Shown here in pieces: positions 25,513 through 41,309 of a DNA stretch of 64,000 nt. The stretch is from assembly GCA_963169235.1 (NCBI GenBank), contig CAUJCX010000035.1:1-64000 (forward strand), written 5' to 3'. The DNA is from Actinomycetota bacterium (lineage in GTDB: Bacteria; Actinomycetota; Thermoleophilia; Miltoncostaeales; Miltoncostaeaceae). The number at the start of each line of letters is the position of its first letter. Position 1 is the stretch's first letter. Both the position numbers and the translations under genes were made by a program. The notes beneath the pieces are model-generated. The model was given only the letters and a program-made list of their open reading frames with translations. It was not told the DNA's origin and made no database searches.

Positions 25513-28500
25513 GTGCCCAGGGACGACTCTCCGACGCGCGAACGCAGCCACCGCAACCTCGTGACCCTGGTGGTCGCGTTCGTGGTGCTGGTGGTGCTCG
25601 CCCGCGTGGCGCTGCGCATCGCGGCGGAGGTCACGGTGGGCGCGGCGTTCTTCGACGCCCTGGGGATGGGCGACGTCTACGCCACCCGCGTGCGCTGGGG
25701 AGTCGGCCTCGGGGTGGTGGCCGGCATCGTCACGCTCGTGATGTGCCTGCCCGTGCTGTTCCTGGCCCCGTCGGCGCGGGCCGACGCCGGAGACGACGAC
25801 CGCGTCGAGTCGTCACCCGAGGAGCCGGGCCCGCTGACCGAGGAGGAGATCGCGCGCATCGCGCGGCACCTCGACCCCGCCGACCTCACGCGCGAGCGTC
25901 CCCCGCGCGGCACCGGGGGCTGGACGGCGCACGCCCGCCAGGCCCGCCGGCTGGGGCAGGCCGCGTTCGCCGTCACCGTGATGCTGGTGGCGGGCATTGT
26001 GATCCCGACGGCCGTCGGCGCCCGCGACACGTTGCTCGCGGGCCTCAACGCGCAGCCCTTCGGCGTCACGGAGCCGGTGTTCGGCCACGACGTGGCGTTC
26101 ACCGTGTTCACGGTGCCGGCGTGGCAGGCCGTCATCCGCATGCTGGCCGTCGGGCTGGGCATCGCCTCCGTCGCCGTCGTGCTGACCGGCGTCGCCCTGT
26201 GGTACGGGGAGTCACAGAACGGCAGCCGGCGGCGGGCCGAACGCATCGCCGCGCGCACGCTGACGATGGGCCTCGCGGTGGGAGGCGCCTGGCTCGTCAC
26301 CCTGGGCGCCGCGATGTGGTTGTCGCGCTACGGCCTCCTGTCGGGCCGGGGGCTCGCGATCGCGGGACCCACCGAGGCCGCCCGCCGCGTCGACATCCCC
26401 ACGCGCGCCGTCGGCGGCATCGCGCTGATGCTCCTCGGGGCCGCCCTCGCGTTCGCGGCGATCCGGCCGCTGCGGCGCTTCCTGGTGCCGTCCCGGGTGG
26501 GCCCCGCGGCGCTCGCGGCACTCGCGTTCTGGGGTGCCGTGGCCGTGGCGCTGACCCTGGTGTCCACCGTGTGGTGGCTGGTGCTGCTGGCCGCGGTCGT
26601 GGCCGCCCTCGTGGCGCTGCACCGCTCGCTGCCGGCGCGCGACGCCGCGCGGCCGCTCCCGCCCTGGGCCGCGCCCACGTTCGCGCTGGGCAGCGTGGTG
26701 CTGATGGCCATGGCCGGTCCGCTGGGCACGGTGCTGTACGACGCCGCCGTGCTGAGGGGTCCGCGCTTCGAAGTGGAGCGCGCACCCATCACCGACACGC
26801 TGCGCGCCAGCCGCGACGCCACGGGGCTGGCGGCGGCGCGCGTCGTCGCGTACCCCGGCGTGCCCGGCCCCATCACCCAGGCGGGGCTCCAGGCCTCGCC
26901 CGCGTCGCTGGGCTCGCTGCGGGTGGTCGATGTCGGGGCGGCCCGCAGCGCGTGCCGCTCGGAGGCCGGGTCGGGCGTCAACCGGCTCTACGCGTGCGAG
27001 GACATCGACATCAACCGCATGACCGTCGGCGGGCGGCGGCTGACGGTGTTCGTGGCGGGCCGGGAGATCGACTACGCCCGTAGCACGGAGTTCTCGCAGC
27101 GCCACCTGACCCGCACGCACGGCTACGGCGTGCTGGTGGCCCCGGTCGACCGGGTGGCGGCCAACGGCCGCCCTGAGTGGATCGCCAACGGCATCCCCCA
27201 GCGCGGCATCAGCCCGGCCATCGCGCACCCCGAGATCTACTTCGGCGCCCAGCCGTCGGTGCCGTGGGCGCTGGTCAACACCACGCTGCGCGGCCTCGAC
27301 GCGGGATCGCCCAACCGCGTCATCGACGATTGGTGCCACGGAGCCGACGCGCAGGCCGCGTGCGGGCGCGCCGGCGGCACGGGCATCTCGGTGGCGGGCC
27401 TCTGGCGCCGCTTCGCGGTGTCGCAGGTGCTGGGCGGCATGCCCCTGGTGGGGGAGGGGCGCCGCGTGTGGGCCGCCACCGACGCGAACACGGCCACCGA
27501 CCGCACCCGCCTGCTCCTGCACCGCGACATCCGCGCCCGCCTGGGCGAGATGGCGCCGTTCCTCGTGCCCGACTCCGACCCGTACTTCGCCGCCGCCGGA
27601 GGCCGCATCTGGGTCGTGGTACCCGCCTACGTCGCGACGTCGCGGTACCCGCACGCGGCGGCGTTCGGCGGCGCCAACTACATGCGTCAGCCCGTGCTGG
27701 CCGCGATGGACGCGTACTCCGGCGAGACGCACCTGTTCGTCACCGACGACGAGGAGCCCATGCTGGCGACGTGGCGCGCGGTGTACCCGGGGCTCTTCAC
27801 CCCCGCCGCGCGCATGGACGCCTTGGCGCCCGGCCTGGCCGACCAGGTGCGGCTCGGGGAGGACCTCTTCGACTTCCAGAGCGCCGCGACCGAGCGGTTC
27901 CACGTCGCCGACCCCGAGGAGTTCTGGAACGACACCCAGGCGTGGACGCCCGGTCTGCAGCAGGTCGGGGCCCAGGACGGCCAGGTGAGCGCGGCCGCGG
28001 CGCGCTACACGTACCTGCGTCCGCAGGGGCGCAGCGACGAATCGTTCGCGGTCATGCGGACGTTCACGCTGGCGTCCACGGACGCCGGGCGCACCGTGGC
28101 CGGCTGGCTGGTGGCCTCGAGCGAGCCGCAGGACCTGGGACGGCTGACGCTGACGACGTTCTCGGGTTCCGACGGGCCCCCGTCGCTGGCCACGTTCACC
28201 ACCCTGATCGGGCGCGACGAGGAGCTCACCCGGCAACTGGCCCTTCAGCCCCACCGTCAGCGCGGTGACGCGATGGTGGTGCCCGTCGATCGGGGCGTCT
28301 TGTACGCCCTGCCCATCTACGTGACGTCGCAGGGCACGGGGTCCGGGGCCGCCGAGCCCGTGGTGGGCCTCCTGCGCGTGGTCGTCTCGGACGGCGCGCG
28401 CATCGAGGCCGGTCGCACGCTCGACGCGGCGCTGGCCGCGCTGACGGGCCGCTCGGAGCCGGGCCCGGCGGCGTCCACCGGGGGCGGGCCGTTGATCGCC

Positions 28501-28635
28501 CAGGCCCGGGCCGAGCTGCGGGCCTTCAACGCCGCCAACGCGCGCGGCGACTACGCGGCTGCAGGGCGGCATCTCGATCGTCTCAACCGGCTGCTGGGCG
28601 CGGCGGCCACGCGGCCGGCCGAGCCCTCACCCTGA
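25513..28635 (+). CDS. UPF0182 family large membrane protein
   Basis: The 1040-residue product is a UPF0182 protein, common in actinobacteria and some cyanobacteria, with unknown function. The N-terminal third holds about seven transmembrane segments (first two at roughly 15-37 and 62-88), interrupted by a charged loop at 90-145. The remainder is a large soluble domain with family segments such as GIPQRGISPAIAHPEIYFG, YVATSRYPHAA, NYMRQPVLAAMDAYSGE and YPGLFTP. It ends with a Pro/Ala-rich tail. GTG 25513 precedes a short basic N terminus. It is followed 51 bases later by aroC, but a functional link is not implied. Confidence 0.92.
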   Translation: MPRDDSPTRERSHRNLVTLVVAFVVLVVLARVALRIAAEVTVGAAFFDALGMGDVYATRVRWGVGLGVVAGIVTLVMCLPVLFLAPSARADAGDDDRVESSPEEPGPLTEEEIARIARHLDPADLTRERPPRGTGGWTAHARQARRLGQAAFAVTVMLVAGIVIPTAVGARDTLLAGLNAQPFGVTEPVFGHDVAFTVFTVPAWQAVIRMLAVGLGIASVAVVLTGVALWYGESQNGSRRRAERIAARTLTMGLAVGGAWLVTLGAAMWLSRYGLLSGRGLAIAGPTEAARRVDIPTRAVGGIALMLLGAALAFAAIRPLRRFLVPSRVGPAALAALAFWGAVAVALTLVSTVWWLVLLAAVVAALVALHRSLPARDAARPLPPWAAPTFALGSVVLMAMAGPLGTVLYDAAVLRGPRFEVERAPITDTLRASRDATGLAAARVVAYPGVPGPITQAGLQASPASLGSLRVVDVGAARSACRSEAGSGVNRLYACEDIDINRMTVGGRRLTVFVAGREIDYARSTEFSQRHLTRTHGYGVLVAPVDRVAANGRPEWIANGIPQRGISPAIAHPEIYFGAQPSVPWALVNTTLRGLDAGSPNRVIDDWCHGADAQAACGRAGGTGISVAGLWRRFAVSQVLGGMPLVGEGRRVWAATDANTATDRTRLLLHRDIRARLGEMAPFLVPDSDPYFAAAGGRIWVVVPAYVATSRYPHAAAFGGANYMRQPVLAAMDAYSGETHLFVTDDEEPMLATWRAVYPGLFTPAARMDALAPGLADQVRLGEDLFDFQSAATERFHVADPEEFWNDTQAWTPGLQQVGAQDGQVSAAAARYTYLRPQGRSDESFAVMRTFTLASTDAGRTVAGWLVASSEPQDLGRLTLTTFSGSDGPPSLATFTTLIGRDEELTRQLALQPHRQRGDAMVVPVDRGVLYALPIYVTSQGTGSGAAEPVVGLLRVVVSDGARIEAGRTLDAALAALTGRSEPGPAASTGGGPLIAQARAELRAFNAANARGDYAAAGRHLDRLNRLLGAAATRPAEPSP

Positions 28636-31435: not shown

Positions 31436-31893
31436 CCGGTGCGCCTGTGGAGACACCCCGCATCGCGCTGCTGCACGGGCCCAACCTGGGGCGCCTGGGG
31501 CATCGTCCCGTGCAGCACTACGGGGCGTTCACGCTGGCCGACCTCGAGGCGCGCGTGCGCGGGTGGGCCGCCGAGCGCGGCATGCGGGTCGGGTGCTTCC
31601 AGAGCGACCACGAGGGCGCGTTCCTGCAGCACGTCCACGGCCTCGCGGGCATCGTGGACGGCGCGGTGGTGAATCCGGGGGCGTGGACGCACTACCAGTG
31701 GTCCATCCGTGACGCGCTGGAGGTGCTGTCGGTACCGTTCGTGGAAGTGCATCTCAGCGACGTGGACGAACGAGCGAAGACCGAACCGCACCGCGGCGTG
31801 TCGGTGGTGCGCGATCTCGCCGTGGCTACGGTCGCCGGCAAGGGGCCGGACGGCTACCGCGAGGCCCTCGACATCCTGAAGGGGGTGCTGTGA
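31432..31893 (+). CDS. aroQ: Type II 3-dehydroquinate dehydratase
   Basis: The 153-residue protein is a type II dehydroquinase. Conserved catalytic positions are kept: HGPNLGRLG (Asn), the Arg in GHRP, the Tyr of HYGAFT, FQSDHEG, NPGAWTH (Asn and His), EVHLS (His) and an Arg in EPHRGVS. It departs from standard members by having HRPVQHYG where REPxxYG is usual, and by a few extra residues before the last Arg, in the mobile lid region. The aro operon context supports the biosynthetic role. The ATG overlaps the aroB stop. Confidence 0.88.
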   Translation: MTGAPVETPRIALLHGPNLGRLGHRPVQHYGAFTLADLEARVRGWAAERGMRVGCFQSDHEGAFLQHVHGLAGIVDGAVVNPGAWTHYQWSIRDALEVLSVPFVEVHLSDVDERAKTEPHRGVSVVRDLAVATVAGKGPDGYREALDILKGVL

Positions 31894-32981
31894 ACACGCA
31901 TGCCACGCGGCGCGCCGCGGTGCTGGCCACGCTCGCCGACCGGGGGGTGGACGCGCTGCTGGTCACGCATCTGCCCAGCGTCCGCTACCTCACGGGCTTC
32001 GTGGGCTCCAACGGCGTCGTCGCCCTCAGCCCCGATGGCACGGTGCTGGTGACCGACTCCCGCTACACCGTGGCCGCGAAGGCCGCCGTCGACGAGGGCA
32101 CCCAGGTGCGCATCGAGGGCGTCGACGCGCTGCCCGCGGTCGCGCAGACGCTCGCCGGGATGACGCCCGAGGGGGGCGTGGTGGCGCTGGAGGCGGCGCA
32201 CATCACGCTGCACCGGGCCGACGAGCTGCGCGGCGTCCTGACGACGCTGGGACGCACCACCAGGGGCGAGACCGGCATCGTCGAGGACGTGCGCGTGGTG
32301 AAGGACGACGCCGAGAAGGCGCTCTTGCGCGAGTCGGCCCGCATCAACGACGCGGCGCTCGCCCGGGTGCTCGCGGGTGGCCTCGCCGGCCGGCGCGAGC
32401 GCGACGTCGCGTGGGACATCCTGTCCGCGCTGCGCGACGAGGGGGCGGAGGGTCCCAGCTTCGACAGCATCGTGGCGGCCGCCGGTAACGGGGCGCGGCC
32501 GCACGCCGTGCCGTCCGACGCCGTCATCCCCGACGACACGCTGGTGGTCATCGACATGGGGGCGATCCACGGCGGCTACTGCTCCGACATGACGCGCACG
32601 ATCCCGGTGGGCGACCCGCCCGCGAAGCTGCGCGAGATCTACGACGTGTGCCTGCGCGCCCAGCGGGCGGCCGTCGCGGCCGTGCGCCCCGGCGTCGCCT
32701 GCGCCGAGCTTGACGCCGTCGCACGTGACATCATCGCCGACGCCGGCTACGCAGATCACTTCGGGCACGGCCTGGGTCACGGCGTGGGCATCGAGATCCA
32801 CGAGGCGCCGCGACTGGGCCGCAACGCCAAGGGTGAGCTTGCGTCCGGGATGGCGATCACCATCGAGCCGGGCATCTACCTGGAGGGGCTCGGCGGCGTC
32901 CGCATCGAGGACCTGGTGCTGGTCACCGACGACGGCGCCGAGGTGCTCTCGCACGCACCGATCGCTTCGCACGACGACTGA
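31890..32981 (+). CDS. M24-family aminopeptidase (Xaa-Pro peptidase-like)
   Basis: The 363-residue protein has an N-terminal creatinase-like domain (about 1-125, LLVTHLPSVRYLTGFVGSNG) and a C-terminal pita-bread metallopeptidase domain. The five metal ligands are visible in VIDMGA, CSDMTRT, HGLGHGVGIEIHE, TIEPGIY and RIEDLVLV. It removes N-terminal residues before proline. Homologues commonly precede efp in actinobacteria and firmicutes, as here. GTG 31890 overlaps the aroQ stop. Confidence 0.92.
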   Translation: MNTHATRRAAVLATLADRGVDALLVTHLPSVRYLTGFVGSNGVVALSPDGTVLVTDSRYTVAAKAAVDEGTQVRIEGVDALPAVAQTLAGMTPEGGVVALEAAHITLHRADELRGVLTTLGRTTRGETGIVEDVRVVKDDAEKALLRESARINDAALARVLAGGLAGRRERDVAWDILSALRDEGAEGPSFDSIVAAAGNGARPHAVPSDAVIPDDTLVVIDMGAIHGGYCSDMTRTIPVGDPPAKLREIYDVCLRAQRAAVAAVRPGVACAELDAVARDIIADAGYADHFGHGLGHGVGIEIHEAPRLGRNAKGELASGMAITIEPGIYLEGLGGVRIEDLVLVTDDGAEVLSHAPIASHDD

Positions 32982-32990
32982 GGGAGACGC

Positions 32991-33551
32991 ATGCCGACCA
33001 TCAGCACGAACGACCTGAAGAACGGGTGGGTGATCGACCTGGAGGGCAGCCTGTGGTCGATCGTCAGCTTCCAGCACGTCAAGCCGGGCAAGGGCGGTGC
33101 GTTCGTGCGCACCAAGCTCAAGAACATGGCGGCCGGCAACACGCAGGACAAGACGTTCCGCGCCGGCGAGAAGCTCGAGCGGGTGCTGACGGTCAGCAAG
33201 AACATGCAGTACCTCTACTCGGACGCCGGCAACCTGGTACTGATGGACAACGAGACGTACGAGCAGACCGAGGTGCCGGCCGACTCGGTGGACGGCCAGG
33301 ACCTGCTGGTGCCCAACAGCGAGGTGCAGGTGATGTTCGTCCGCGACGCCCCGTTCCGGGTGGAGCTGCCGACGTTCGTGGAGGTCACCGTCACGCGCAC
33401 GGACCCCGGCGCGAAGGGCGACACGGTCTCGAACGTCACGAAGCCCGCCGAGGTCGAGACCGGCGCCACCGTGCAGGTGCCGCTGTTCGTCAACGAGGGC
33501 GACCGCATCCGCATCGACACCCGCACCCGCGAGTACAGCGCCCGCGTATGA
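32991..33551 (+). CDS. efp: Translation elongation factor P
   Basis: The 186-residue three-domain protein relieves ribosome stalling at polyproline. The domain I loop reads HVKPGKGGAFVRTKLKN, with the tip lysine in the usual position; no modification genes (epmA/epmB, ymfI-like or earP) are seen nearby. The family signature near the C terminus matches RTDPGAKGDTVSNVTKPAEVETG. A GGGAG ribosome-binding site precedes the ATG. The polyproline-rich GH26 protein at 43211 is a natural client in this window. Confidence 0.96.
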   Translation: MPTISTNDLKNGWVIDLEGSLWSIVSFQHVKPGKGGAFVRTKLKNMAAGNTQDKTFRAGEKLERVLTVSKNMQYLYSDAGNLVLMDNETYEQTEVPADSVDGQDLLVPNSEVQVMFVRDAPFRVELPTFVEVTVTRTDPGAKGDTVSNVTKPAEVETGATVQVPLFVNEGDRIRIDTRTREYSARV

Positions 33552-33582: not shown

Positions 33583-35319
33583 GTGACCACCGTCGGATTC
33601 GTCGACACCACCCTCCGCGACCTCACCACGTTCCCGTGGGGATCGCGCATCGCCGCGGACGACGTGGCGGTGGCGGGCGCCGCCCTGGCCCGCTGCGGCG
33701 CGCGCGCCCTCGAGGTGGTGGATCCGCGGTCCGCGCGGGCCGTGCTGCAACTGCGCACCGAGAGCCCGTGGGACCGGGTGCGCGCCGTCGTGCGCCACGC
33801 GGGCACTACGCCGGTGGGCGTGGTCGTGCACGGGCGCCTCCTGTGGTCGGACCACCCCGTGTCCGACGAGGTCTGCCGGCGCTTCGTGGTGTGCGCCGCC
33901 GACAACGGCGTCCGCCGCATCCGCTCGCTCGACCCGCTCAACCACGCCGAGCACATGCTGGCCATCGCGGAGGCCGCCCAGGCGGAGGGCGTGGAGTTCG
34001 TGCCCAGCCTCATCGCCGGGCCCGTCCCGCACTTGGACGACGCGCGCTGGCGCGACGAGATCCGCGCGCTGTCCGCGCTGCCGGGTGTCTCGGCCCTGTG
34101 CATCTCGGACGGAGGCGGGCACCTGACGCCCTCGGCGCTCAGGACGCTGGTGGGGACCGCGGCCGAGGTGTCGGGACGCCCGGTGGAGGTGCTGCTGCAG
34201 TCCCCCGGGGGCCTGGCGCCGCTGTTGGCCGTCACCGCGATCGGCGCGGGCGCCGCGGTCGTGTACGCCGCCGCCGGCCCCGCCGCGCTGGTGGGGGCGC
34301 GTCCCTCGGTCGAGACGGTACGCGCCGCGCTGGTGGGCAGTGGCCACGATCTGCAGTGCGATGCCGCCGGCGTCGCCGATGCGACGCTCGCCATCGCGCC
34401 GCTGTTGTCGTCGGACCGCCTGGTGCAGGGTGCCGCGGCGGTGTTCGGGGCGGCCGTGCCGATCCCGCCCGACCTCGAGATCGGCCTCATGAGCCGCCTG
34501 GGCCGGGTGGGGATGTCGCCCCTGTTGCCCGAGGTCGCCAACGAGGCGGCCCGCATCGCGGGCGAGCTGGGCAACCTCACGTTCGCCTTCCCGCTGGGCG
34601 ACGCCCTGGTGTCACAGGCCTCGCAGCACGTCATCGGCGGGGAAAGGTGGGCGTCGATGCAGCCGGTGCTGGCCGCCGCCGTGGACGGCGCGTTCGGCGC
34701 GCTGCGCGGACCCGTCGATCCCCGCGCGCAGGAGGCCGCGGCGTCGGTCGACTACGCCGACGTGGTCACCACCGCGGTCGCGCAGTTCGATGCCCAGGCC
34801 GACCTCTCCGACGAGGACCGCGTCCTGCTGGCGCAGTTCCCGGAGGACACCGAGCGCCTGCGCGAGCGCCGCCTGAGCCTGCGCGCCGAGGTGCACGACA
34901 CCGAGGCGACGGTCATCGACCGCGCGCTGCTCGACACCCTCATCCAGGCCGTGGAGTCGTCGGACGAGGCCGAGGTGTCGGTGGAGGTGGCCGGCTCGCG
35001 CGTGACCGTGCGGCGCTCCGCGCCGTCGTCGGCGCCCGTGCCGGGGGCACCCGACGCGGGGTTCGCCGCCGGAGACGGCTACGTGCGCGTCGAAAGCATC
35101 ATGGTGGGCACGTTCTACCGCGCCCCGTCGCCCGAGGCCGACGCGTTCTGCGAGGTCGGCACCAAGGTGGAGGAGGGGCAGGTGCTGTGTCTCATCGAGG
35201 CGATGAAGCTGTTCAACGAGATCACGGCCCCGTGCGCCGGCACGGTGCGCGAGATCGCGGTGCAGAACGCCGAGGGCGTCGAGTTCGGCCAGCTCCTTTT
35301 CCTCATCGAGCCGTCGTGA
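33583..35319 (+). CDS. accB: Fusion of a degenerate OadA/PycB-like carboxyltransferase domain to biotin carboxyl carrier protein
   Basis: The 578-residue protein occupies the accB slot between efp and accC. Residues 1-430 follow the carboxyltransferase domain of oxaloacetate decarboxylase alpha/pyruvate carboxylase: VDTTLRD at 7-13, SLDPLN (115-120), TPSA-type helix, then the PYC/OADA helical part with GLMSRLGRVGMSPLLPEV. The carbamylated-Lys motif (IKDMAG) reads CISDGGG (Ser175) and the metal HxH (HTH) reads LLQ (204-206), so the metal site is lost. Residues 440-578 are a full AccB: a helical N-terminal part, Ala/Pro linker, and biotinyl domain MVGTFYRAPSP...IEAMKLF with biotinyl Lys542. It probably carries carboxybiotin for acetyl-CoA carboxylase; the first domain's role is unknown. 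Confidence 0.85.
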   Translation: MTTVGFVDTTLRDLTTFPWGSRIAADDVAVAGAALARCGARALEVVDPRSARAVLQLRTESPWDRVRAVVRHAGTTPVGVVVHGRLLWSDHPVSDEVCRRFVVCAADNGVRRIRSLDPLNHAEHMLAIAEAAQAEGVEFVPSLIAGPVPHLDDARWRDEIRALSALPGVSALCISDGGGHLTPSALRTLVGTAAEVSGRPVEVLLQSPGGLAPLLAVTAIGAGAAVVYAAAGPAALVGARPSVETVRAALVGSGHDLQCDAAGVADATLAIAPLLSSDRLVQGAAAVFGAAVPIPPDLEIGLMSRLGRVGMSPLLPEVANEAARIAGELGNLTFAFPLGDALVSQASQHVIGGERWASMQPVLAAAVDGAFGALRGPVDPRAQEAAASVDYADVVTTAVAQFDAQADLSDEDRVLLAQFPEDTERLRERRLSLRAEVHDTEATVIDRALLDTLIQAVESSDEAEVSVEVAGSRVTVRRSAPSSAPVPGAPDAGFAAGDGYVRVESIMVGTFYRAPSPEADAFCEVGTKVEEGQVLCLIEAMKLFNEITAPCAGTVREIAVQNAEGVEFGQLLFLIEPS

Positions 35320-35338: not shown

Positions 35339-36694
35339 GTGAAACTGCTCGTCGCGAACCGGGGTGAGATCGCCGTGCGCGTGATCCGCACGGCCCGGGA
35401 GATGGACATCCCGTCGGTCGCGGTCTACTCGACGGCCGACGTGCACACGCCCGCCGTCGAGCTGGCCGATGAAGCCGTGTGCATCGGCCCGGCGCCCCCG
35501 GGGGAGAGCTACCTGCGCATGGAGCGGGTGATCGGCGCGGCCGAGGTGACCGGGTGCACCCACATCCACCCCGGCTACGGCTTCCTCAGCGAGAACCCCG
35601 TCTTCGCCCGGGCGTGTGCCGACAACGGCATCACGTTCGTGGGGCCCGCCCCCGAGGTGATGGAGCGGATGGGCGACAAGGTGCAGGCCAAGCAGGCCGC
35701 GCGCGAGGCGGGCCTGCCGGTGCTCGAGGGCTCCGACGGCGCCGTGAGCGACCTGGACGCCGCCGTCGCCGCCGCCGAGCGCGCCGGTTTCCCCGTGTTG
35801 CTCAAGGCGGCCGCGGGCGGCGGCGGCCGCGGCATGCGGCGCGTGGACGCCGCGTCCGAGCTGGCTTCCGCCTTCGACACCGCCCAGCGCGAGGCGCAGG
35901 CGGCGTTCGGCGACGGTTCGCTGTACGTCGAGAAGCTGCTGGAGGGCGCCCGCCACGTCGAGGTGCAGATCCTGGCCGACGGCCTGGGCGGCGTGCTGGT
36001 GTGTGGCGACCGCGAGTGCTCCATCCAGCGGCGGCACCAGAAGCTGGTGGAGGAGGGGCCCGCCCCGAACCTGCCGGACGCGACCCGCACCGCCATGCAC
36101 GAGGCGTGCATCCGCGCCGCGCGGGCGTGGAACTACAAGAGCGCCGGCACCATGGAGTTCCTGGTCGACGCCAACGCCGACTTCTACTTCCTCGAGCTCA
36201 ACGCGCGCCTGCAGGTGGAGCACCCCGTCACCGAGCTGGTGTCCGGGCTCGACCTGGTGGCCGAGCAGCTGCGCGTCGCCGCCGGCGGGCTCCTGACCCG
36301 TACGGGCGTCGCCGAGCCGCTGGGGCACGCCATCGAGGTGCGCGTGAACGCCGAGGACCCCGAGGCCGACTTCCGGCCGTCGGCGGGCCGCTTGAAGGAC
36401 TTCTACCTGGGCGGCGGGCCGGGCGTGCGCATCGACACGTTCTGCGCGCCCGGCACCAACGTGCCGCCCAACTACGACTCGCTGCTGGCCAAGCTGATCG
36501 TGTGGGCCCCCGACCGGCCGCGGGCCGTCGCGCGGTTGCGGCGCGTGCTGGACGAGGCGCTCGTCACCGGCGTGCCCACCACGCTGCCGTTGTTCCGCGA
36601 CATCGTGCGCGAGCACGCGTTCGGGGAGGGCCGCTACACCACCGCGTACCTGGCCGAGCGGGCCGCGTTCCTGCCGACCATCGGCGGAGGGTGA
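35339..36694 (+). CDS. accC: Acetyl-CoA carboxylase biotin carboxylase subunit
   Basis: A 451-residue ATP-grasp enzyme that carboxylates biotin on AccB. It begins MKLLVANRGEIAVRVIRTARE and has the IHPGYGFLSENP segment, the Gly-rich ATP loop KAAAGGGGRGMR, ECSIQRRHQKLVEE, and the catalytic ELNARLQVEHPVTEL. GTG 35339 lies 20 bases after the accB fusion gene. Its length is that of a stand-alone subunit, so the carrier must be the fused protein upstream; it could in principle also serve a two-subunit pyruvate carboxylase. Confidence 0.95.
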   Translation: MKLLVANRGEIAVRVIRTAREMDIPSVAVYSTADVHTPAVELADEAVCIGPAPPGESYLRMERVIGAAEVTGCTHIHPGYGFLSENPVFARACADNGITFVGPAPEVMERMGDKVQAKQAAREAGLPVLEGSDGAVSDLDAAVAAAERAGFPVLLKAAAGGGGRGMRRVDAASELASAFDTAQREAQAAFGDGSLYVEKLLEGARHVEVQILADGLGGVLVCGDRECSIQRRHQKLVEEGPAPNLPDATRTAMHEACIRAARAWNYKSAGTMEFLVDANADFYFLELNARLQVEHPVTELVSGLDLVAEQLRVAAGGLLTRTGVAEPLGHAIEVRVNAEDPEADFRPSAGRLKDFYLGGGPGVRIDTFCAPGTNVPPNYDSLLAKLIVWAPDRPRAVARLRRVLDEALVTGVPTTLPLFRDIVREHAFGEGRYTTAYLAERAAFLPTIGGG

Positions 36695-37122
36695 GCGTGG
36701 CTCCGGCCGCTCGAGGCCGGCGCCCGGCCCGCACCCAGGCGGTGTTCCTGCTGTACCAGCACGACGTCACGGGCCTCGACCTGGACGATCTGGAGGAGAA
36801 CCTGCGCCGTGACGGGGGCGGCACGCCCGACGACTTCACGCGCGCGCTGGTGGACGGCGTACACGTGGACCGTGGGCACATCGACGGCCTCATCGCGGGC
36901 GCCGCCGAGGGCTGGACGGTGGACCGCATCGCCCCGCTCGAGCGCAACATCCTGCGCGTCGCGGTGCACGAGCTCGTGGACTATCCCGAGACGCCCGTGG
37001 CCGTCACCATCGCCGAGGCCGTGCAGGCCGCCAAGACGTACTGCGGCGCCGAGGCGCCCGCGTTCGTCAACGGTATCCTCGGCGCCATCGCCCGTCGCGA
37101 ACGACCCGGGGAGGCCACATGA
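36691..37122 (+). CDS. nusB: Transcription antitermination factor NusB
   Basis: The 143-residue all-helical protein binds boxA RNA with NusE in rRNA antitermination. Family segments are GRRPARTQAVFLLYQHD at the N terminus and LERNILRVAVHELVDYPETPVAVTIAEAVQAAKTYCGAEAPAFVNGILGAI at the C terminus (quoted in part by position 92-138). GTG 36691 overlaps the accC stop (GTGA). The efp-accB-accC-nusB order is ancestral in Gram-positive bacteria. Confidence 0.94.
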   Translation: MSVAPAARGRRPARTQAVFLLYQHDVTGLDLDDLEENLRRDGGGTPDDFTRALVDGVHVDRGHIDGLIAGAAEGWTVDRIAPLERNILRVAVHELVDYPETPVAVTIAEAVQAAKTYCGAEAPAFVNGILGAIARRERPGEAT

Positions 37123-40625: not shown

Positions 40626-41309
40626 GTGCGTGACCGCATCGCAAACGTCCGACGCGACCTCGGTAAGGCCCGCCGGTTGATGGAGCGCGTCGGACCGGCC
40701 GGAATCGTGGTGCGCAGCGTCAACCGCTTCGTCCCCCGGCGCTTTCTGACGCTGGAGTGGTTCCTCGTCTTCGAGACGTGGGTCGACCCGGCCCCAGGCG
40801 CCGTGCCCGCGCCGTTCCGGTGGGCCACCCCGCGCGACGCGAGCGCCATCGGGCCCCTCCACACCGGGGAGGGCATCGTCGCCGAGCGGCTCGCGCGGGG
40901 CGACCGTTGCCTCGTCGCGGTGGACGCCGGACAGCCGATGGCGCAGCTGTTCGCGACGCAGCGTCCGTGGAACGAGACGGGCCTGCACTATCACGTCCCG
41001 CCCGGATCCTGGTGGATGGTCGACGCGTTCGTGGACGCGGCCCATCGGGGGCGGCGCCTGCACGTCGCGATGTTCCGTGAGATGACGTCGCGGCTGTCCG
41101 ACGGTGACGACCGGGTGCGGGCCATCTCCACCATCGACGTGCTCAACGAGCCGTCGCGGCGCTCGGCGGCCCGCCGCGGCGCCCGCGAGATCGGCGCGGG
41201 TCTGGCGATCAAAACCCCGCTCGCGTACATCACCCGTCAGCGCTGGGTCGGCGGGCGCGCCGAGTGGCGCGTGCACCGCAGGCCTCGGCGGATCGACATC
41301 CCGGTGTAG
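40626..41309 (+). CDS. GNAT-fold acetyltransferase-like protein
   Basis: A 227-residue cytoplasmic protein with a basic N-terminal region (RDRIANVRRDLGKARRLMERVG) followed by a GNAT-like core: ATPRDASAIGPLHTGEGIVAERLARGD, a beta-strand LVAVDAGQPMAQLFA, WWMVDAFVDAAHRGRRLHVAMFREM (where the acetyl-CoA loop would lie), and STIDVLNEPSRRSAARRG. The Q/RxxGxG/A loop is only approximate (AHRGRRLH). Homologues of this type are often found in polysaccharide gene clusters. It starts nine bases after dxs. Assignment rests on pattern and is tentative. Confidence 0.55.
   Translation: MRDRIANVRRDLGKARRLMERVGPAGIVVRSVNRFVPRRFLTLEWFLVFETWVDPAPGAVPAPFRWATPRDASAIGPLHTGEGIVAERLARGDRCLVAVDAGQPMAQLFATQRPWNETGLHYHVPPGSWWMVDAFVDAAHRGRRLHVAMFREMTSRLSDGDDRVRAISTIDVLNEPSRRSAARRGAREIGAGLAIKTPLAYITRQRWVGGRAEWRVHRRPRRIDIPV

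Follow-up and report, generated by a model that had tools for sequence, protein, structure and literature searches.

In the 64,000-nucleotide stretch of a Miltoncostaeaceae genome analysed here (Actinomycetota, Thermoleophilia; contig CAUJCX010000035.1, denoted the window), the gene preceding accC encodes a biotin carrier, AccB, fused to a PycB/OadA-type carboxyltransferase (CT) domain that has lost its active site and yet is under strong purifying selection. We propose that this gene is the AccB of acetyl-CoA carboxylase (ACC) and that its N-terminal two thirds represent a retired pyruvate carboxyltransferase. The fusion joins two familiar components, PycB and AccB, in an arrangement on which the open-access literature that we searched contained nothing relevant.

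The fusion gene (33583–35319, + strand) is a single uninterrupted open reading frame of 578 codons with a GTG start, supported by a full-length match to the PycB model and by family-wide conservation. The operon reads aroQ-pepQ-efp-[CT-AccB]-accC-nusB, with 31 bases separating the end of efp (33551) from the fusion and 19 bases separating the fusion from the start of accC (35339). The gene for elongation factor P, efp (32991–33551, +), was assigned from its Pfam EFP domains, and that for biotin carboxylase, accC (35339–36694, +), from NF006367 at 599.9 bits, above the cut-off of 597. The nusB-like gene (36691–37122, +) is an open reading frame recognized as a conserved neighbour, as is the pepQ-like Xaa-Pro peptidase gene (31890–32981, +), whose name derives from its operon place only. 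The initial annotation had described a 578-residue protein consisting of an OadA/PycB-like domain and a complete AccB with Lys542 in an efp-acc-nusB operon; this description holds, with one reading frame matching both PRK09282 and TIGR00531. Elsewhere in the window, a UPF0182 membrane protein of 1040 residues, belonging to an uncharacterised family, is encoded at 25513–28635 (+), and a 227-residue open reading frame 3′ of dxs (40626–41309, +) has no Pfam match at E-values up to 0.001.

The CT domain comprises residues 1–432 (33583–34878, +), with a TIM barrel (about residues 1–255) followed by a helical region (about residues 256–432). The NCBIfam PycB model PRK09282 aligned to residues 2–576 of the fusion (4.6e-51), scoring 174 bits against a curated cut-off of 402. 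Searching the PDB by sequence yielded matches to OadA (2nx9; 1.5e-27, residues 3–416) and to the two-subunit pyruvate carboxylase (PC) 5ks8. The Pfam HMGL-like and PYC_OADA domains had no match in the window protein at E-values up to 1, unlike in live (intact-site) relatives and in those of sister family f3, both of which matched them. The AlphaFold model of the fusion has a mean pLDDT of 85 and a pTM of 0.73; its confidence is low in the linker, roughly residues 479–497. Foldseek placed 5ks8 at the top of the matches to this model (best E-value 4.4e-33), followed by single-chain PCs, transcarboxylase 5S and OadA 2nx9, with TM-scores by target of about 0.77 for 2nx9 and 5S. The predicted structure thus contains the CT fold, in agreement with the earlier claim that the fold pattern remains.

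The metal-binding, substrate-binding and acid-base residues of this domain have defined roles in PC and transcarboxylase 5S, and we located them by aligning the window protein with 2nx9 and with live homologs. Arg12-Asp13 is retained, Asp13 (33619–33621, +) being the sole metal ligand left. The carbamylated metal-binding lysine of the KDM motif is replaced by Ser175 (34105–34107, +) and the metal-binding His-x-His by Leu204-Leu205-Gln206 (34192–34200, +). Beyond the metal site, Thr16 (33628–33630, +) stands in place of a conserved glutamine, His83 (33829–33831, +) in place of the conserved substrate-binding arginine, and Ile300 (34480–34482, +) in place of the conserved Ser/Thr acid-base residue. 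Erasure of the metal site at Ser175 and at LLQ (204–206), as originally noted, is therefore confirmed: the alignment reveals neither an active-site lysine nor a His-x-His.

A complete AccB follows at about residues 445–578. It consists of an N-terminal helix-hairpin (residues 445–478; 34915–35016, +), defined by the AlphaFold model and alignment, and a biotinyl (BCCP) domain (residues 500–577; 35080–35313, +), defined by the model and by matches to Biotin_lipoyl (8.5e-18) and to the BCCP model TIGR00531 (5.8e-32). Its hallmarks comprise the 'thumb' GTFYRAPSP and the EAMK motif at 539–542, in which the predicted biotinyl residue Lys542 (35206–35208, +) is invariant in the alignment. The TIGR00531 score is 111.3 bits against a curated cut-off of 115.2, a value that the relatives L029, L034 and L031 exceed. 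The setting is that of an AccB: accC adjoins, the genome has AccA and AccD (both types were matched in 45/45 genomes tested), and the window's genome (96% complete) contains no second AccB, which disposes of the separate functional accB that had been raised as a case against this reading. Three biotin carriers are present in this genome, namely the fusion, a PCC-type BC-BCCP protein and a single-chain PC; its other Biotin_lipoyl matches are lipoyl domains. Because the fusion is the sole AccB and a separate PC is present, the fusion most likely supplies the ACC carrier in this organism, and pyruvate carboxylation can proceed through the separate enzyme.

The fusion was matched in all 28 Miltoncostaeaceae genomes surveyed (family f1) and in 45 genomes of three sister families (f3, f8 and f9, conceivably Gaiellales), that is, in 73/73; most of the partial matches among them sit at contig ends. 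Families f1, f3, f4, f6, f8 and f9 of the Thermoleophilia share the gene order pepQ-efp-[fusion]-accC-nusB, in many cases preceded by aroQ. Recurrence at efp-accC loci within one clade, which had been proposed as a check, is thus borne out, and the fusion is the normal state in these lineages. Three records titled 'Bifidobacterium breve' (L059, L061 and L069) hold Miltoncostaeaceae-type sequence, and their organism labels look wrong.

The same fusion occurs in relatives of the window protein whose active site is intact. The fused CT of f2, f6 and most f4 members has the full set of residues (R-D, H-Q, KDM, H-C-H, Arg83 and Ser300), and live-looking fusions occur in many other actinobacterial families throughout the phylum; the relatives L029 and L034 exceed both curated cut-offs (PycB, 817 and 799 bits versus 402; AccB, 141 and 128 versus 115). 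The intact-site homologs are presumably catalytically active. Genomes with a live fusion have no other PYC_OADA-type protein and almost no PEP carboxylase (PEPC), which fits a working PC. Several live forms retain a relic AccB start methionine at the junction, for example in AMDVDKIKQLI, pointing to a pycB-accB gene fusion. The initial annotation had proposed a conserved but inactive CT; loss and conservation are both seen, but the presence of intact-site relatives with the same fusion indicates a retired enzyme half, not a domain recruited dead.

The locus also varies in layout. In f2 (L030, L094, L097, L101 and L104), the live fusion lies immediately before nusB and accC is absent, so the biotin carboxylase of this family must be encoded elsewhere. 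A third arrangement occurs within f4 (L130 and L133–L136; G032 and G110–G113), where an unfused intact-site CT gene and a separate biotinyl-domain frame of 212–261 residues occupy the same region. Families f5, f7, f10 and f11 are without the fusion. What resembles AccB most closely in them is mostly a frame of ∼600 residues, interpreted here as a BC-BCCP alpha subunit by comparison with the 624-residue copy in the window's genome.

Trees and residue patterns together indicate that the site was lost independently at least three times, with fold and fusion always kept. One loss is common to f1 and f3/f8/f9, which have the derived residues Leu14, Pro18, Ala216, Arg240, Gly339 and His349 in common and form a clade in the EFP+AccC+PepQ tree (support 99/97); after their split, f1 came to be without Arg83 and Gln16, whereas f3/f8/f9 are without Asp13 but retain Arg83 and Gln16. 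Another loss affects the f4 genomes G103 and G104 (L131 and L132), in which Ser replaces Asp13 and D-x-D replaces H-x-H while the lysine persists, and which nest with live f4 in the neighbour-gene tree (100/100). Their D-x-D and lysine could form another ligand or metal site. In f15, elsewhere in the phylum, H-x-H is gone and Lys and Asp are retained; its sister in the CT tree, f33, has Met for Lys with H-x-H retained and is perhaps a fourth independent loss. The CT tree joins G103/G104 to the dead forms of f1 and f3/f8/f9, a grouping that we attribute to long-branch attraction. Taken at face value, that grouping would fit one ancestral loss behind every dead form; we set this reading aside in view of the nesting of G103/G104 with live f4, their different residues and the long-branch attraction to be expected.

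The dead CT is under strong purifying selection. Its dN/dS in close f1 pairs, some of them re-using one genome drawn from two collections, was 0.010–0.052 (Nei-Gojobori; CT dS 0.18–0.32), no higher than that of the attached AccB in the same pairs (0.03–0.085). Among 21 diverse f1 copies 61 CT columns are invariant, and the CT is less conserved in dead groups than in live ones. The helical region contains seven residues invariant in both dead and live forms (E321, G330, P337, Q345, R355, G369 and G372); no other part of the f1 dead CT is conserved less well, contrary to the prediction of a simple interface model. Strong selection in spite of at least three losses of the site suggests that the dead enzyme is a structural or regulatory part of ACC.

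The explanation we favour, and regard as on balance probable, is that an ancestral carrier was common to PC and ACC and that its CT became a pseudoenzyme kept mainly as an assembly domain. Early in Actinomycetota, pycB would have fused to the accB adjoining accC, and AccC would have charged one biotin arm serving two carboxyltransferases: the fused CT, which would make oxaloacetate from pyruvate, and the separate AccA/AccD, which makes malonyl-CoA from acetyl-CoA. Several lineages would then have lost pyruvate carboxylation, among them the common ancestor of Miltoncostaeaceae and the three sister families; some of these lineages have a separate PC or PEPC. PEPC, PYC or a second PycB was found in 12/24 dead versus 2/20 live genomes (Fisher p = 0.008), or in 10/24 dead genomes by a strict count of anaplerotic enzymes (p = 0.039); with relatedness ignored in both counts and with absences that may reflect incomplete genomes, the link between site loss and other anaplerotic enzymes is only suggestive. 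The CT fold would have been retained to hold the carrier in the complex, CT–CT dimerisation most likely making AccB multivalent and positioning the arm on AccC and AccA/AccD. This dimerising role is proposed by analogy with solved PCs, in which CT dimers are one of the main contacts of the complex (PMC5059739).

A different use of the fold would be sensing: the metal-free barrel may bind pyruvate, oxaloacetate or another acid and tune ACC, a reading that we consider possible but rather unlikely. Malic enzyme offers a precedent, since its fused inactive phosphotransacetylase (PTA) domain is required for allosteric control (PMC8100219). Ligand sensing is most plausible in f3/f8/f9, where the metal-free mouth is the most conserved face of the barrel and Arg83, Gln16 and the new Tyr204 and Gln206 show little or no variation, a pattern suggestive of a working ligand pocket. 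In f1 the mouth is likewise more conserved than average (p = 0.0006) but only moderately so: little or nothing changes in the β1 loop or at Asp47, Asp117, Asn120 and Asp176, but the substrate arginine and glutamine are lost and the β3 and β7 loops vary. This partial conservation of the mouth leans towards a structural role, favouring assembly over ligand sensing for the window protein. Somewhat more doubtful is the compound proposal that the barrel is a ligand-gated regulator tying malonyl-CoA synthesis to a metabolite of the pyruvate/oxaloacetate node and, in addition, that the live relatives are shared-carrier enzymes, possibly with ATP-free carboxyl transfer from oxaloacetate to acetyl-CoA.

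The CT could also be a functionless relic that persists merely as the in-frame upstream part of an essential AccB. The position of AccB behind the CT, the lack of a conserved internal start in f1 and the weaker CT conservation in dead than in live groups are compatible with this idea, but a dN/dS of 0.01–0.05 over the whole CT, its invariant columns and the persistence of the fusion, despite the lost site, in every one of the 73 genomes make it improbable. Even less credence is due to a brake, in which the dead barrel would trap the carboxybiotin arm unproductively and so limit ACC; BCCP does dock in the CT site of two-subunit PC (PMC5059739), but the docking pocket drifts in f1 and nothing specific favours the idea. 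We give an equally slim chance to an enzyme of altered chemistry or metal: the fixed or nearly fixed Asp8, Asp13, Asp47, Asp117, Asn120 and Asp176 of f1 and the D-x-D of G103/G104 would suit it, but the lysine, both histidines, Arg83, Gln16 and Ser300 are all gone and their substitutes differ between f1 genera. As exceptions, two frames are broken between CT and AccB, by a frame change in the GC-rich linker of G012 (L143, 1778–3570), a complete single-contig Miltoncostaeaceae genome, and by an in-frame TAG in G054 of f8 (L113, 2026–4038); these are possibly assembly errors or natural splits, show that such events occur and, if genuine, would weigh against the explanation we favour. An assembly error or mis-joined genes as the origin of the fusion, a concern voiced at the outset, is nevertheless practically negligible, because the single frame repeats in dozens of independent assemblies and several families at a conserved locus. 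A Na+-pumping oxaloacetate decarboxylase was rejected as well, OadB (PF03977) being absent from the window genome and from 43/45 genomes tested.

These findings place a putative two-in-one carboxylase carrier in many actinobacteria beyond the classical groups and reveal, at one locus, a natural series from intact site to pseudoenzyme with at least three independent losses. The series makes it testable whether one biotin carrier can work for two carboxylases and whether a dead catalytic domain can become indispensable to the assembly or control of ACC, the gatekeeper of fatty-acid synthesis.

Among known systems, the window protein resembles PycB (5ks8; PRK09282) in that a single chain contains a CT barrel, a helical region and, at its C-terminus, a biotinyl domain, while a separate BC subunit is encoded nearby. 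It differs from PycB in that the metal and substrate residues are lost, an AccB N-terminus replaces the BT-like linker, the biotinyl domain is of the AccB type and the gene lies beside accC in an ACC-type operon. With the AccB/BCCP of multi-subunit ACC (TIGR00531) it has in common the N-terminal hairpin, the thumb, EAMK, the adjoining accC and AccA/AccD in the genome; unlike AccB, it carries a 432-residue CT at its N-terminus and scores slightly below the model's cut-off. The CT fold is that of OadA (2nx9) and transcarboxylase 5S (1rqb), but the site is dead and the genome is without OadB. Malic enzyme with its inactive PTA domain is likewise a central-metabolism enzyme with a dead domain permanently fused to it, but the folds are unrelated and the likeness is one of analogy only. 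Taken together, the CT dimers of PC and the PTA domain of malic enzyme provide precedent for both an assembly and a control role of the dead domain.
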